The notes under the pieces: generated by a model
What the model saw: the letters and a program-made list of their open reading frames with translations, nothing else
What the model was told of the DNA's origin: nothing
Database searches by the model: none
Shown here: piece by piece, positions 17,632 through 28,437 of the stretch
How positions within the stretch are numbered: the stretch's first letter is position 1
Layout: every line of letters starts with the position of its first letter
Program-made: the position numbers and the translations under genes
Source of the DNA: Dyella psychrodurans
Lineage (GTDB): Bacteria; Pseudomonadota; Gammaproteobacteria; Xanthomonadales; Rhodanobacteraceae
Length of the DNA stretch: 64,000 bases
Direction: 5' to 3'
Assembly: GCF_003363265.1 (NCBI RefSeq)
Contig: NZ_QRBF01000002.1
Span: 493,741 to 557,740 of the forward strand

Positions 17632-19356
17632 TCAACCGAATGTGAAGGCATAGGCGCGCACATCAGGATCGAGGAAGGTGATTTCGAACACGCGCTCGCC
17701 AGTGCCGTGCGCCTGGCGCACCAGCTGATAGAGGCGTTGTCCGGTGATCGTGCCGTTGCCGTCGGCGTCGGTGTCCGCGCCGTGATCGGCACCCGGAGCC
17801 TTGCCATCGAGCGTGACGCGGAAGCGAATCGGCTTGCCGTCCTTGCCTGGACCAAGCACAAGATGCAGATCGCGCCCACGGAAGCGATAGACGATGCCGC
17901 CATTGGGCGCATCGAGCGTGGCGCGTTGTTCGCCGACCGTCCAATGGCCGTCGAAGGCCCATTGATTGATCAGCAACGTGGCGGGCGCGTTGTAGTGCCA
18001 GCTTTCGTCATGCGCGATCTGACCGCCCGCAAAGTTTTCGCCGCGCGCGTAGCCCACGTAGGTCTCCGGCGAGCGTGTCATGTCGCTGGAGCTGGCCGCT
18101 TCCGCACCGGATGCGTCGGGTTGCACATAGCCGCCCGGCAGGTTCTTGTAGCCTGCATCGCTCAGCATGCGGCGAATCGTGTCTTCACTGCCGGCGTAGT
18201 CGCCCTCGCCGAAGTGATGAGCGCGAATCTGTCCTTTGGTGTCGATGAAGTAGTGCGCGGGCCAATACTCGTTGTTGAAGCCCTGCCAGATGGCGTAGTC
18301 GTTATCCATCGCCACCGGATACGTGATGCCGAAATCTTTGACGGCTTTTGCCACGTTGGCAGGGTCTTTCTCGAACGCGAATTCCGGTGAGTGCACGCCG
18401 ATCACCACCAGGCCGCGATCGCGGTACTTCTGCGCCCATGCATTCACGTAGGGCAGCGAGCGGATGCAGTTGATGCAGGAGTAGGTCCAGAAATCGACCA
18501 GCACGACCTTGCCGCGCAAGGATTCGGGCGAGAGCGGCGCGCTGTTGAACCATTGGGTGGCACCGGCGAGCGACGGAAATTCACCTTCAACGGGGAGTGC
18601 CTCACCGGCTTTGGGAGCAGGTGCTGCGTTGACGGATGCGGGGCGTACCGCGTCGATCAGCTTCTGTTCGATACCGCTGGTGCTGGCCAGCGATACGCGG
18701 GTCAGCAAACCAGTGTCCACACCCAGCGCGATGACCGCCACACCACACAACACCAATGCGCCGAGTGCGCGGCGAATCCACTCGCCGGCGCCCAGCGAGC
18801 GCTTCATCGCGGAAAACACCTTGCCGCCCACCACCAGCGCGAGCGCCAGCGAAACGGCAGCGCCCATCGCGTAAGTCAGCAACAGCAGCGTCGTTTGCAC
18901 ACTGGCGCCTTTCAGCGCGGCACCGGTCAAAAGCAGGCCGAGAATCGGTCCCGCGCAGGGCGCCCACAGCAATCCGGTCGCGACGCCCAAGCCTGCGGCG
19001 GACCACGGCGAGTCAGGCTTCGCATCGGAATGTTCGGAAAGGCGATTGCCGAGTGTCACGAACGGCCGGCTGGCCCATTCGGCGACATGCGAAGAGAGCA
19101 GGGTGACACCAAGCACCGCCAGCACGATCAGCGCGACATAGCGCCCGATCTGGTTGGCATGGACCGCCCAGCCGCCGCCGACCGCCGCCAGCGTGGCCAC
19201 CAGTGCGAAGGTGAGCGCCATGCCGATCAACATCGGCAGGCCGTTGCGCGCGAACGGTCGATCCGCACGCGCGAACACGAACGGCAGGACCGGCAGGATG
19301 CACGGACTGAGGATGGTCAGTACACCGCCCAGGAAGGCGAGGATCAGCAGGATCAT
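17632..19356 (-). CDS. dipZ: DipZ: CcdA-type membrane domain fused to thioredoxin and C-terminal domain
   Basis: The 574-residue protein starts at the ATG at 19356, where the first membrane helix begins. Residues 1-215 form a CcdA/DsbD-beta-like domain with redox cysteines C19 (SPCILP) and C134 (WAPCAGP). Residues 262-400 are a periplasmic thioredoxin-like domain with C294-x2-C297 (SCINC). The last 160 residues match the DipZ C-terminal beta domain. The protein should carry electrons from cytoplasmic thioredoxin to the periplasm. The following msrB gene names a likely client. The promoter motif GTAACC-N16-CGAA lies upstream at 19402-19427. Confidence 0.92.
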   Translation of the reverse strand: MILLILAFLGGVLTILSPCILPVLPFVFARADRPFARNGLPMLIGMALTFALVATLAAVGGGWAVHANQIGRYVALIVLAVLGVTLLSSHVAEWASRPFVTLGNRLSEHSDAKPDSPWSAAGLGVATGLLWAPCAGPILGLLLTGAALKGASVQTTLLLLTYAMGAAVSLALALVVGGKVFSAMKRSLGAGEWIRRALGALVLCGVAVIALGVDTGLLTRVSLASTSGIEQKLIDAVRPASVNAAPAPKAGEALPVEGEFPSLAGATQWFNSAPLSPESLRGKVVLVDFWTYSCINCIRSLPYVNAWAQKYRDRGLVVIGVHSPEFAFEKDPANVAKAVKDFGITYPVAMDNDYAIWQGFNNEYWPAHYFIDTKGQIRAHHFGEGDYAGSEDTIRRMLSDAGYKNLPGGYVQPDASGAEAASSSDMTRSPETYVGYARGENFAGGQIAHDESWHYNAPATLLINQWAFDGHWTVGEQRATLDAPNGGIVYRFRGRDLHLVLGPGKDGKPIRFRVTLDGKAPGADHGADTDADGNGTITGQRLYQLVRQAHGTGERVFEITFLDPDVRAYAFTFG

Positions 19357-19401
19357 GAATCGGCTCGTTGATTCCGGTTGGAATGCATTGCTGCAGATGT
19401 A

Positions 19402-19427
19402 TTCGTCGCAAGCTGCGCCGTGGTTAC
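19402..19427 (-). promoter_or_regulatory. ECF (sigma-F/NrsF type) promoter of dipZ-msrB
   Basis: On the minus strand GTAACC (19427-19422) is followed by exactly 16 bases and CGAA (19405-19402). This equals the consensus I recall for Caulobacter SigF-dependent promoters. The predicted start point near 19395 leaves a leader of about 40 bases to the dipZ ATG. The same motif faces the opposite way at 19442-19467. Confidence 0.8.
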
Positions 19428-19441
19428 GCATCGTGCGCGAG

Positions 19442-19467
19442 GTAACCGCCGGCTCATATGAAGCGAA
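19442..19467 (+). promoter_or_regulatory. ECF (sigma-F/NrsF type) promoter of the sigma-nrsF pair
   Basis: GTAACC (19442-19447), 16 bases, CGAA (19464-19467). A start point near 19474 would place the sigma ATG at 19496 about 22 bases downstream. This indicates autoregulation of the sigma factor and supports the longer sigma reading frame. Confidence 0.8.
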
Positions 19468-19495
19468 TGGCGTTCTGTAGAGCGATGGTGGATCG

Positions 19496-20176
19496 ATGAT
19501 GGCGCAAACCCTGACCTTGAGCACCTTGACCTTTGATGGCGCGTGGGTACTACTACGCCAGCCCATGCTCCGGGTTCCGGGTGTCGACAAGTTCGTGCCA
19601 ACTGAATCGATCAGCGCCAGCGATCAAGCCGACCGCCAACGGTCGGCGTGGATGGCTGCTGCGCAGTCGGGCGATCAGCGCGCGTATACGCGCCTGCTGG
19701 GCGATTCCGTCGCGCTGATCCGCGCGGTGGCGCGGCGGCAGGGCGTGCCGGTCGATGCGCTGGACGATGTGGTGCAGGAAACACTGTTGACCGTGCATCG
19801 CGTTCGTCACACGTTTGATCCGTCGCGTTCTTACGACGCCTGGTTGTCGGCCATTGCCAGCCGGCGCGCGGTCGATGCGCTGCGCAGCCACGGCCGCCGC
19901 GACCGGCGCGAGGTGCGCGACGAGCTGGCGATCGATCAACATGCGGACCGCGACGACGCCAGTACGGGTGCCGAGCGCGAGCAGGAAGCGCAGCGCTTGC
20001 GCAAAGCGATCGAGACTCTGCCGCCCGGCCAGCGCGAGGCGGTCGAGCAGCTCGGTCTGAAAGAGCGCTCGCTGGCCGAGGCGGCCGAACAGACCGGTCG
20101 CAATACCGGCGCCTTGAAAGTGAATCTGCATCGCGCGCTGAAGTCGCTGCGCGATCGCCTGCATGGAGAATCCTGA
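19496..20176 (+). CDS. ECF RNA polymerase sigma factor (NrsF-linked, SigF-like)
   Basis: The 226-residue protein has sigma region 2 at about 62-128 (DALDDVVQETLLTVHRVRHT, then SYDAWLSAIASRRAVDALR) and region 4 at about 165-222 (LPPGQREAVEQLGLKERSLA, then a TGRNTGALKVNLHRA helix). The start at 19496 is supported by GGTGG just upstream and by the ECF motif at 19442-19467. A shorter start at 19565 would also keep all domains, so the first 23 residues are uncertain. The nrsF gene follows by five bases. The sigma factor probably switches on itself and dipZ-msrB in response to oxidative or metal stress. Confidence 0.9.
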   Translation: MMAQTLTLSTLTFDGAWVLLRQPMLRVPGVDKFVPTESISASDQADRQRSAWMAAAQSGDQRAYTRLLGDSVALIRAVARRQGVPVDALDDVVQETLLTVHRVRHTFDPSRSYDAWLSAIASRRAVDALRSHGRRDRREVRDELAIDQHADRDDASTGAEREQEAQRLRKAIETLPPGQREAVEQLGLKERSLAEAAEQTGRNTGALKVNLHRALKSLRDRLHGES

Positions 20177-20181
20177 CCCCG

Positions 20182-20832
20182 ATGTCCGACGCACCACGCC
20201 ATGATGCCCTGATCGACGCGCTCGGCGAGGAGCTGACGCCCGTACGGCGTCTGCCGCCGCCGTGGCTGCGGACGCTCGGCTGGCTGGCCGTGGTGGCGGT
20301 CATGGCGGCGGTGCTGTTCTGGCGCTACGGTGCCGACACCATGCTGCACCGCTGGCATGCAGCGCCGGACCTCGGCCTGGCGGCGTTCGGCGCCGTGACC
20401 ACGGCGATCACCGCCGCGTTGGCGGCCTTTGCGCTGTCGGTGCCTGGGCGTTCCACCCGCTGGGCCTGGCTGCCGGTACCCAGTGCCGTGCTCTGGATCG
20501 GAGCCAGCGGGCTCGGATGCCTGCGCGCCCACATTCCCGGCATGGCTGTGCTCGACATGCGGGAAGCCAATCACTGCCTGATCTTCATCGTGAGTTTCTC
20601 GATCCCGCTCTCCGGCCTGCTGATCTGGCTGTTGCGGAGGGCCTGTCCGCTCCGTCCGGTGCTGACGGCGGTTGTCGTCGGCCTTGCCAGCGCCGCCGCC
20701 TCGGCCAGCCTGCTGGAGATCTGCCATAACGTCGACGCCGCGGCGTCCGACCTGGTGATGCACGCGCTTGCCGTCGCCATCGTGGTGACAGCCAACCTGG
20801 TCATGGGCGGAAGGCTGCTGTCGAGGGCCTGA
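20182..20832 (+). CDS. NrsF family (DUF1109) membrane anti-sigma factor
   Basis: The 216-residue product has a short cytoplasmic N terminus and six predicted membrane helices, the DUF1109/NrsF layout. Cysteines occur in GLGCLRAH, EANHCLIF, RRACPL and LEICHNVD; cysteines of this family have been proposed to sense metals or oxidants. Lying five bases after the ECF gene, it should hold the sigma factor at the membrane until stress releases it. Family knowledge comes from Caulobacter and Bradyrhizobium systems; the signal here is inferred. Confidence 0.86.
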   Translation: MSDAPRHDALIDALGEELTPVRRLPPPWLRTLGWLAVVAVMAAVLFWRYGADTMLHRWHAAPDLGLAAFGAVTTAITAALAAFALSVPGRSTRWAWLPVPSAVLWIGASGLGCLRAHIPGMAVLDMREANHCLIFIVSFSIPLSGLLIWLLRRACPLRPVLTAVVVGLASAAASASLLEICHNVDAAASDLVMHALAVAIVVTANLVMGGRLLSRA

Positions 20833-26461: not shown

Positions 26462-27020
26462 GACGGCGCACCTCCGTGGAATGACGTGTCAGTTCGGCTC
26501 TTAGCCGTTCGCGTGCGCGCGCGAGGCGCGACATGACGGTGCCGATTTTCTGTCCCGTTATCGACGCGATTTCCTTGTACGAACATTCTTCGAGTTCGCG
26601 CAGCACGATCGTCTCGCGCAACGGGTGGGGCAGGTTTTCCAGTGCCTTCTGCAAGGCGCCGACATCCAGTGCGATGAGCATGCGTGCTTCGGGTGTGGGT
26701 TGTTCGTCGACGACCGCATGAGCGTCGTCGTCGAAGGTTTCCTGCATGCCGTCGGGCGGGACCTTCATGCGCAGCGAGTAAAAGGTGTTGCGCACGATGG
26801 CGAGCAGCCAGACGCGCGCATCGCCGCCGCGAAAACTGTCGAAGTAACGAAAGGCGCGCAGCATCGCTTCCTGCACCACATCCTGGGCATCCGCGTCGTC
26901 GCGCGCCAGCCAGCGCGCCAGGTTGTAGGCCGCGTCCAGGTACGGCAGAACCTGCGCCTCGAAGCTCGTGCTTCCGGCGGCAGGTCGACCTGAGGCAATG
27001 CGGTGAAAGTCAGCTGGCAT
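26448..27020 (-). CDS. ECF RNA polymerase sigma factor (second system)
   Basis: The start is the ATG at 27020; a longer frame would run through the promoter. The 190-residue protein has region 2 (DADAQDVVQEAMLRAFRYF, then DARVWLLAIVRNTFYSLRMK) and region 4 (LENLPHPLRETIVLRELEE, then YKEIASITGQKIGTVMSRLARAR). It is followed by its overlapping anti-sigma gene. A GGAATA-N16-GGTAAT motif lies just upstream at 27028-27055 and again, divergently, ahead of the metallophosphoesterase gene. The predicted start point falls one or two bases before the ATG, so the message may be leaderless. Confidence 0.93.
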   Translation of the reverse strand: MPADFHRIASGRPAAGSTSFEAQVLPYLDAAYNLARWLARDDADAQDVVQEAMLRAFRYFDSFRGGDARVWLLAIVRNTFYSLRMKVPPDGMQETFDDDAHAVVDEQPTPEARMLIALDVGALQKALENLPHPLRETIVLRELEECSYKEIASITGQKIGTVMSRLARARERLRAELTRHSTEVRRHDVQ

Positions 27021-27027
27021 GAAAGGT

Positions 27028-27055
27028 ATTACCGCAGTTGCCGCGACTTTATTCC
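27028..27055 (-). promoter_or_regulatory. ECF promoter of the second sigma/anti-sigma pair
   Basis: On the minus strand GGAATA (27055-27050) is followed by exactly 16 bases and GGTAAT (27033-27028). The same two boxes at the same spacing occur on the plus strand at 27071-27098. Sharing between divergent units suggests autoregulation. Confidence 0.75.
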
Positions 27056-27070
27056 CTCCGCACAAAACCC

Positions 27071-27098
27071 GGAATAGGCCATCGGAAAGGCTGGTAAT
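27071..27098 (+). promoter_or_regulatory. ECF promoter of the metallophosphoesterase-cupredoxin operon
   Basis: GGAATA (27071-27076), 16 bases, GGTAAT (27093-27098). The start point would lie near 27105, giving a leader of about 40 bases that contains GGAG ahead of the ATG at 27146. Confidence 0.75.
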
Positions 27099-27145
27099 GC
27101 AGGTGAGGGTGGAGTGGCCGCCCTGCCCATATGGAGCATCCAATC

Positions 27146-28078
27146 ATGCAAGACACTCACGACAACCCGGCCGAGGGTCGGAGGCAGTTCCTCAAATGCA
27201 TGGCCGCCGGGGCCGGCACGCTGTGGCTGATGAAAAGCGGCGTGCTGCAGGCGCTTCCGTTGAGCGAGGGAGCTGGTGCTCAGGACTCAAGTTTCAGTTT
27301 TGTGCAGATCAGCGATTCGCACATCGGCTTTCACAAGGCGCCGAACATGGACGTGGCGGGCACATTGCGCCAATCGCTGGCGACGATCAGGAGTCAGGCG
27401 ATTCGTCCGGCGTTTGTGATGCATACGGGCGACCTGACGCATCTGTCCAAGCCGGACGAATTCGATACTCTGGCCGGACTCGTGCAGGAAGCGCACATCG
27501 GCAAGGTTTTCTATGTGCCCGGCGAACACGATGTCATCGGCGACAACGGTGCGGAGTTCTTTCGTCGGTTCGGCGAACGACAACAGGCCGGTGGCTGGTA
27601 CAGCTTCGATCAGGGGGGCGTGCACTTCGTCGGTTTGATCAACGTTCTGAACCTGAAAGCGGGTGGCCTGGGTTCTCTCGGTGAGGATCAACTTGCCTGG
27701 CTGAAGAACGATCTCGCCGGATTGTCATCGGAAACGCCGCTGGTGGTGTTCGCGCACATGCCGCTATGGTCGCTCTATCCGCAATGGGGTTGGGGTACGG
27801 ACGATAGTGCACAGGCGATGACTTACTTGCGCCGCTTCGGGTCGGTCACCGTGTTGAACGGGCATATCCACCAGATCCAGCAGAAGGTGGAAGGCAGCAT
27901 CACTTTTTACACCGCGCGTTCGACCGCCTATCCGCAACCCGCGCCGGGAGTAGGTTCTGGCCCCGGGCCGCTGCAGAGCGTGACGGCCGATGCGCTGCAT
28001 CGCTACCTGGGCGTTCGCGACGTGCGACATGTGCGCGGTTCCGGCGCGCTTGCTGTCACGGAGGAGGAGTTGGCATGA
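27146..28078 (+). CDS. Tat-exported calcineurin-like metallophosphoesterase
   Basis: The ATG at 27146 has GGAG nine bases upstream and is preferred to an ATG at 27131. Of 310 residues, the first 45 form a Tat signal (GRRQFLKCMAAGAGTLW). The metallophosphoesterase blocks are D57-x-H59 (ISDSHIGF), GDLTH, GEHD in place of the usual GNHD, AHMPLW and NGHIHQ. The enzyme should bind two metals and cleave phosphoesters in the periplasm. The Asn-to-Glu change in the third block is unusual, since that Asn normally binds metal. Its stop overlaps the cupredoxin start by four bases. Confidence 0.88.
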   Translation: MQDTHDNPAEGRRQFLKCMAAGAGTLWLMKSGVLQALPLSEGAGAQDSSFSFVQISDSHIGFHKAPNMDVAGTLRQSLATIRSQAIRPAFVMHTGDLTHLSKPDEFDTLAGLVQEAHIGKVFYVPGEHDVIGDNGAEFFRRFGERQQAGGWYSFDQGGVHFVGLINVLNLKAGGLGSLGEDQLAWLKNDLAGLSSETPLVVFAHMPLWSLYPQWGWGTDDSAQAMTYLRRFGSVTVLNGHIHQIQQKVEGSITFYTARSTAYPQPAPGVGSGPGPLQSVTADALHRYLGVRDVRHVRGSGALAVTEEELA

Positions 28079-28437
28079 ATGCGATGATGGCATTCAGAAT
28101 CCTCTGCGCACTTCTCGTCATGACGGCGTTGTCGGGCATCGCCGGAAACGCATCGGCCGCGGATGCGCTCCCTCCAAAGGGCGCAAAGGTTTATCAGGTT
28201 GCGATCCACAACTTCGCGTTCGAGCCAAAGACGATCACGGTGCCGACCGGCGCCTACGTGGTATGGGTCAATCGCGACGAGGAACCGCATGTCGTGACCA
28301 GTGCGGGTGCGTTATTCACACCGTCCAAGGCCTTGGATACGGGAGACACCCACGTCGTGACGCTTTCCAGGCCGGGAACCTACACCTATTACTGCTCGAT
28401 CCATCCCATGATGGTGGGAACCATCATTGTGAAGTGA
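28075..28437 (+). CDS. Secreted one-domain cupredoxin
   Basis: The 120-residue protein has a signal peptide (residues 1-29) and a plastocyanin/azurin-like domain. Copper ligands are visible as H72 (EEPHVV), C107 and H110 (YYCSIHP), and M112 or M113. It could carry electrons or bind copper in the periplasm. It overlaps the metallophosphoesterase gene by four bases and lies in the presumed ECF regulon. Its 3' end overlaps the convergent dioxygenase gene by 14 bases. Confidence 0.9.
   Translation: MNAMMAFRILCALLVMTALSGIAGNASAADALPPKGAKVYQVAIHNFAFEPKTITVPTGAYVVWVNRDEEPHVVTSAGALFTPSKALDTGDTHVVTLSRPGTYTYYCSIHPMMVGTIIVK

Follow-up and report, generated by a model that had tools for sequence, protein, structure and literature searches.

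The gap between the ECF sigma gene and the divergent metallophosphoesterase gene of Dyella psychrodurans very probably forms a bidirectional ECF-sigma promoter module, through which both flanking operons would be controlled by the adjacent sigma factor. We analyzed this gap within a stretch of 64,000 nucleotides (hereafter the window), and compared it with the corresponding loci in related genomes and in more distant bacteria.

Two probable opposed promoters in one gap

On the plus strand, positions 27028–27098 of the window read ATTACC-N16-TATTCC-N15-GGAATA-N16-GGTAAT, and GGAATA-N16-GGTAAT can thus be read on each strand, as GGAATA AAGTCGCGGCAACTGC GGTAAT (27055..27028, minus) and GGAATA GGCCATCGGAAAGGCT GGTAAT (27071..27098, plus). 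The spacer is exactly 16 in both promoters, in agreement with the original observation of identical boxes and spacing on both strands. Table 1 lists the features of the locus. Transcription from the plus promoter is predicted to start near 27105–27106. The AAAA between the two −35 boxes is a possible UP-type element for the plus promoter; of 59 loci, 23 have AAAA upstream of the −35 box of the phosphoesterase promoter and 4 upstream of that of the sigma promoter.

Table 1. Features of the divergent sigma/phosphoesterase locus (window positions)
Feature	Position	Strand	Remarks
Anti-sigma factor, 257 aa	25688..26461	-	zf-HC2/ZAS N-terminus, long membrane-type helix, RseB-like periplasmic domain
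ECF sigma factor, 190 aa	26448..27020	-	ATG at 27020; Pfam Sigma70_r2, Sigma70_r4_2; predicted leaderless
Sigma/anti-sigma operon promoter (predicted)	27055..27028	-	-35 GGAATA 27055..27050, N16, -10 GGTAAT 27033..27028
Gap between both -35 boxes	27056..27070	.	15 bp; AAAA at 27064-27067 just upstream of plus -35
Phosphoesterase-cupredoxin operon promoter (predicted)	27071..27098	+	-35 GGAATA 27071-27076, N16, -10 GGTAAT 27093-27098
Calcineurin-like metallophosphoesterase, 310 aa	27146..28078	+	Tat-like signal read from sequence; alternative in-frame start 27131
Cupredoxin, plastocyanin/amicyanin-like	28075..28437	+	Pfam Cupredoxin_1, Copper-bind

The probable promoter pair is conserved across relatives

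For comparison we fetched the best 80 of 390 candidate loci with phosphoesterase relatives; the closest of these to bear a name come from Dyella species. Among these 80, the sigma gene lies divergently beside the phosphoesterase gene in 62 and is arranged otherwise in 18 (4 loci without a sigma match, 13 with the sigma gene on the same strand, and 1 with the sigma gene elsewhere). GGAATA is present in 61 of the 62 divergent loci on the phosphoesterase side and in all 62 on the sigma side, and the longer pattern GGAATA-N16-NGT in 60 and 61, respectively; 59 loci have it on both strands (the exceptions are L086, L091 and L092). When the spacer was left free over 13–19 on the sigma side, 61 placements had N16, one N15 and two N19. 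The letters of the spacer differ from locus to locus, so the conservation is not a mere matter of recent descent, although the loci are related by descent and the counts are therefore not independent.

Short AT-rich hexamers turn up anywhere, and the boxes might accordingly be chance matches or ordinary housekeeping promoters, a reading to which we give a negligible probability as the motif is rare genome-wide and kept across phyla. We rejected chance on the basis of two counts: in 100 rounds of dinucleotide shuffling the number of loci with the pattern on both strands never rose above 0 (mean 0.0, vs 59/62 observed), and the same loci contain 121 GGAATA-N16-NGT sites in the gaps vs 2 in 400,067 bases outside (10.7 vs 0.005 sites per kb).

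Rearranged loci bear on another alternative. In the 13 same-strand loci, GGAATA-N16-NGT is found at most 300 bp upstream of the phosphoesterase gene in 12 and upstream of the sigma gene in 7; in the Trinickia loci, phosphoesterase, cupredoxin, sigma and anti-sigma genes lie on one strand, and each operon can have its own site. The two GGAATA boxes form an inverted repeat (TATTCC-N15-GGAATA) in the window, and an inverted repeat also in many family members, as would be expected if they served a dimeric transcription factor as its operator and were not −35 elements. We consider such an operator very unlikely, given that the box-to-box distance ranges from 13 to 79 over 59 pairs, that the spacing to the −10 box stays 16 in 61 of 64 NGT placements, and that the rearranged loci keep single sites before their operons. 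Two separate promoters fit these observations better.

In close relatives, the distance between the −35 boxes tends to be near 16, 26–27 or 37–38 bp, in steps of about one helical turn. The distinct distances in loci labelled as belonging to the family are 15, 16, 26, 27, 37 and 38, and for those in the other loci (13 to 79; ten distinct values) the resultant at a period of 10.5 is 0.64; some bins of the same family (e.g. L055, L057, L062, L068) were counted among the others. Since the events are few and related, and some family bins are placed among the others, helical phasing of the two −35 boxes is only a hint.

The −10 box is more variable. Over the 59 pairs, both promoters have GTA in 36, GTC in 11 and GTT in 3; the nine remaining pairs are of unlike type, eight of them with GTC at the sigma promoter and GTA at the phosphoesterase promoter, and one with GTT and GTC. 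GTA on both sides is typical of Dyella, Rhodanobacter and nearby genera, and Trinickia has GTA as well; GTC and GTT pairs come mostly from bins labelled Acidobacteria, Verrucomicrobia or Proteobacteria, and most Acidobacteria and Verrucomicrobia bins have NGTC or NGTT (vs NGTA in Dyella-type relatives and Trinickia). The −10 types were set beside an alignment of sigma region 2, from which L068 and L074 were left out because of junk alignments. Of the promoter sequence originally proposed for this ECF group, GGTAAT as the −10 box is not general.

One contig with the cassette (L069) is labelled Candidatus Eremiobacteraeota; its sigma and phosphoesterase are 82% and 87% identical to those of the window, and it probably belongs to a Dyella-type genome. 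A pattern scan of actinobacterial loci (Mycobacteroides, and a Streptomyces plasmid) found no GGAATA-N16-GT; the Streptomyces plasmid has one GGAATC-type site about 160 bp before the cupredoxin gene.

The probable promoter pair and the genes co-occur

We searched 233 genomes of the family for the double-promoter pattern TATTCC-N10..40-GGAATA-N16-GGTA and found it in 59, with 1 match to the backwards control among the matches listed. The same 59 genomes contain an orthologous phosphoesterase (at least 65% identity), and the other 174 lack both; 12 of these 174 have a more distant phosphoesterase only (49–56%), none with the pattern. In one genome (G021) the pattern lies on one short contig and a gene fragment on another, and a second genome (G011) has one additional pattern match elsewhere. 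Within the genus, the sigma factor and the phosphoesterase occur together in the same 13 of 16 genomes. Taken with the conservation and the rearranged loci, these comparative data strongly support the original view that the two sites are matched ECF sigma promoters and that the phosphoesterase-cupredoxin operon is a direct target.

A regulon that appears essentially local

In a genome-wide scan, which had been suggested as a check, the exact motif GGAATA-N15-17-GGTAAT has 3 copies in the 4.54 Mb genome (16 contigs), two of which are the pair in the gap, and the backwards control pattern has 0 copies in the same genome. The third copy (C1:646227; 1501–1528 of L001) falls within a copB-like coding frame that has a multicopper-oxidase-like frame as its neighbor (both names read from sequence); it was treated as probably a chance match.

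From these scans we read the conserved regulon as essentially local, consisting of the sigma factor's own operon and the phosphoesterase-cupredoxin operon, with room for weaker targets, which genome scans could miss because the −10 box is variable (GTA, GTC, GTT). That the sigma factor governs a larger regulon, of which this locus is merely the most conserved target, seems unlikely to us: the third exact site in the copB-like gene, a GGTATT variant at C13:219396 and the weaker sites that −10 variation permits speak for it, but the strict motif GGAATA-N16-GGTAWT has, in the 16 genomes of the genus, only 6 of its 18 sites away from the gap (12 in the gap; 2 control matches), and the relaxed motif GGAATA-N16-GGTAW has 27 of its 46 sites elsewhere (19 at the locus) vs 22 control matches, with 5 of these 27 in G007, a genome without the sigma gene. 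The position of the third exact site within a coding frame also argues against the larger regulon.

Start of the sigma gene and a probably leaderless mRNA

The sigma gene most likely starts at ATG 27020 (minus strand), not at the upstream TTG 27143 of the longest open reading frame. With this start, only 7 nt lie between the minus −10 box and the ATG codon, the first base of the ATG being the eighth base after the hexamer. In excerpts of PMC6180224, the Sinorhizobium meliloti ECF26 promoter sequences that we aligned end, as printed, 7–8 nt after the −10 hexamer, and we take their printed 3' ends to be mapped transcription starts; transcription from the minus promoter is therefore predicted to start at or within 1–2 nt of 27020.

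The sigma mRNA is thus probably leaderless. All 38 close-relative divergent loci (L017–L049, L051, L052, L054, L058 and L069) have an in-frame ATG 6–7 nt after the −10 box; over the 62 divergent loci, an ATG is found there in 47 in any frame and in 41 in frame, and in all 41 the frame runs without a stop from the ATG to codon 20 of the match to sigma. When the nearest start was counted for 61 sigma-side sites (N16 being tried before N15 and N17), it was an ATG at 7 nt in 35 and at 6 nt in 4, and among the other 22 it lay at 15–30 nt in 15 and elsewhere (3 to 49 nt) in 7.

A leadered mRNA, in which a longer transcript is translated from this ATG or from a start further down, is rather improbable. 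Three points speak for it. Codons 2 to ~18 of the sigma gene evolve without codon-position bias (0.34/0.31/0.35 in loci with an in-frame ATG), so the start codon is assigned by its frame and its position; a GAGG overlapping the −10 box in several species is a possible ribosome-binding site on a longer RNA; and in six distant loci the ATG at the matching place is out of frame. Against this stand the in-frame ATG in every close relative, the open frame that follows it, and the window itself, where no further ATG, GTG or TTG precedes region 2 in the sigma frame. A further point against the leaderless reading is the rpoE4 gene of S. meliloti strain Ak57, which is not leaderless as annotated, its start being 72 nt after the −10 hexamer.

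The sigma and anti-sigma factors

The sigma factor matches Pfam Sigma70_r2 (1.4e-11) and Sigma70_r4_2 (4.8e-15), and thus has regions 2 and 4 only, as expected of an ECF sigma factor. Its best NCBIfam model is PRK12533 (NF009185), with 196.4 bits below the cut-off of 248, so it does not qualify as a member of that equivalog; the sigma factor of Trinickia fusca scores 332.5 bits against the same model.

The anti-sigma gene overlaps the sigma gene by 14 nt, and its product belongs to the ZAS class by its match to Pfam zf-HC2 (34.5 bits, cut-off 22.2). The HxxxCxxC residues H29, C33 and C36 are present in at least 90% of 31 aligned sequences, and H126, H144, H193 and W149, after the helix, are invariant in this alignment. 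In a Foldseek search with the structure model (mean pLDDT 83.7, pTM 0.60), the ten best matches were all RseB or MucB chains (E 2.3e-3 to 1.2e-2, none at E 0.001; 79–119 alignment columns, TM 0.26 of the whole model). On the model, the protein appears to be a zinc-type sigma-binding domain fused to an RseB-like domain with three invariant histidines.

A probably exported phosphoesterase and a copper protein

The predicted target operon begins with a phosphoesterase that matches Pfam Metallophos (2.4e-12, 48.1 bits, cut-off 21.5). Calcineurin-like metallophosphoesterases have the motifs DxH, GD, GNH[DE], H and GHxH, and all of them are present except that GEHD replaces GNH[DE] in 32 of 32 sequences. 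An invariant Glu thus occupies, in all of these sequences, the position of the usual metal-binding Asn. The structure model (mean pLDDT 68.7) matches GpdQ and Rv0805 by Foldseek.

The start of the cupredoxin gene overlaps the phosphoesterase stop by 4 nt. Type-1 cupredoxins bind copper through His, Cys, His and Met; the corresponding H72, C107, H110 and M113 are invariant in 24 sequences, which places the protein in this type.

Other neighborhoods of the phosphoesterase gene were also seen. In three Bacteroidota loci without a sigma match (L087, L094, L095) the gene is followed by YceI (L087 by search, L094 and L095 by resemblance), and L094 also has a cytochrome-like gene beside it. Cupredoxin-phosphoesterase pairs are present on Mycobacteroides and Streptomyces plasmids. 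On the Mycobacteroides plasmid (L147, 506–5900), a different ECF sigma gene, a Rieske protein gene, cupredoxin and phosphoesterase genes follow a molybdopterin oxidoreductase gene and an epimerase-like gene; this sigma factor is only 23% identical to that of the window. Among the papers listed by literature searches, none was seen to link the sigma factor, the phosphoesterase and the cupredoxin.

Relation to known ECF systems

The sigma/anti-sigma pair is best read as autoregulated and ECF26-like, since the −35 box, the spacing and the anti-sigma factor all point to ECF26 relatives; the group may already carry a number in the existing ECF classification. For S. meliloti we rely on excerpts of two papers (PMC6180224, PMC3511301). 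The ECF26 group consensus is quoted as GGAATA/GT (PMC6180224), and GGAATA-N16-GGTAAT has both this −35 and the GT of the −10, as do the distant members with NGTC or NGTT. The window resembles RpoE1-EcfR1 and RpoE4-EcfR4 in gene order, with a sigma gene followed by that of a membrane anti-sigma factor (PMC6180224, PMC3511301), and in having a −35 GGAATA and a 16-nt spacer, as in the promoters of rpoE1 (GGAATA-N16-TGTCTT), rpoE4 and SMc04291 (both GGAATA-N16-CGTCTC; PMC6180224). The −10 box differs, being NGTCT in those S. meliloti promoters and GGTAWN at the D. psychrodurans locus. The promoters of sorT (GGAATT), SMa0142 and ecfR6 fit N15 (PMC6180224), so sorT and RpoE6-type promoters differ from the N16 promoters of D. 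psychrodurans.

At the protein level, the sigma factor is 30–37% identical to RpoE1, RpoE4 and RpoE6 of S. meliloti (59–61 bits in a small set, whose E-values are not database-wide), vs 40 bits for the other ECF sigma factor of the window in the same comparison. The anti-sigma factor is 26% identical to EcfR1 over 253 aa (E 2.5e-10 in a set of 10 sequences, not a database E-value), and by alignment and model it has the ECF26-type architecture of N-terminal domain, membrane helix and periplasmic C-terminus, the topology being predicted. EcfR1 and EcfR4, as translated in our analysis, differ from it in lacking HxxxCxxC.

In S. meliloti, RpoE4 controls sulfite oxidase, cytochrome c and pseudoazurin, including the blue copper protein gene azu2 (PMC3511301), so a copper protein as target has a precedent. 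RpoE6, also of ECF26, has its sigma gene divergent from a target (a serine protease gene) with GGAATA −35 boxes nearby, but 40 genes were up on its overexpression (PMC6180224), vs essentially two conserved sites here.

Other systems are similar in part. Among solved relatives of the sigma factor, a SigH/SigE chimaera scores best (86.1 bits), followed by SigH (78.4 bits). SigH/SigR promoters belong to a GGAAT −35 class and presumably differ in spacing and −10 from the window promoters. Besides the SigH-type sigma factor, the likeness to the actinobacterial SigH/SigR and RsrA systems of group ECF12 extends to an RsrA model that matches the anti-sigma factor below the cut-off (1.9e-9). RsrA, a redox anti-sigma factor of the ZAS class, is soluble, unlike the anti-sigma factor of the window, whose structure model shows a long membrane-type helix and an additional domain. 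The Foldseek matches also show a likeness to RseA/RseB and MucA/MucB, but the RseB-like domain of the window is seemingly fused to the anti-sigma factor. The other ECF unit of the window (17632–20832) comprises a sigma gene and an NrsF anti-sigma gene, divergent from DsbD/thioredoxin-like and methionine sulfoxide reductase-like frames (both names read from sequence); it may share the divergent promoter design, as originally proposed.

Proposed mechanism and meaning

The model is built on the observed sequence, its conservation, the co-occurrence, and the finding of no clear excess of sites elsewhere; from these we infer that the sigma factor binds the two sites, where transcription starts, that translation is leaderless, that an envelope signal brings about the release, and that the genes are co-transcribed and the product exported. 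The co-expressed anti-sigma factor would keep the ECF26-like sigma factor at the membrane, until an envelope signal received by its RseB-like periplasmic domain or its zinc-type N-terminus frees the sigma factor. Free sigma would then bring RNA polymerase to GGAATA-N16-GGTAWN on either strand. Of the two transcripts, one, apparently leaderless, would re-make sigma and anti-sigma, providing positive feedback together with its own brake; the other would encode the exported phosphoesterase and the type-1 copper protein. We do not claim copper or sulfite as the signal, for which the basis would be the type of target and the ECF26 precedent (excerpts of PMC3511301).

More tentatively, and with considerable doubt about the whole, these features may be read jointly as an ECF26-like sub-lineage that acts as a single-locus switch. 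A ZAS-RseB fusion anti-sigma factor with invariant periplasmic histidines would sense a metal- or oxidant-linked envelope signal. The two opposed promoters would have their −35 boxes at roughly helical spacing (16, 26–27 and 37–38 bp in Dyella-type relatives), with a leaderless sigma arm whose −10 box is unlike that of the target arm in several lineages, and the product would be an unstudied GEHD-type exported phosphoesterase working with a copper protein.

The design of the locus is a known one, an autoregulated ECF sigma factor whose target is divergent, and the locus is a well-conserved case of it, unusual in some details. An ECF unit of Pseudomonadota and of bins labelled Acidobacteria and Verrucomicrobia thereby gains a promoter that is well defined, a regulon of probably two operons and a sensor open to testing, and a phosphoesterase family becomes linked to a copper protein. 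With a one-locus regulon, the function of this pair would be directly testable, and the signal could be found with one reporter.
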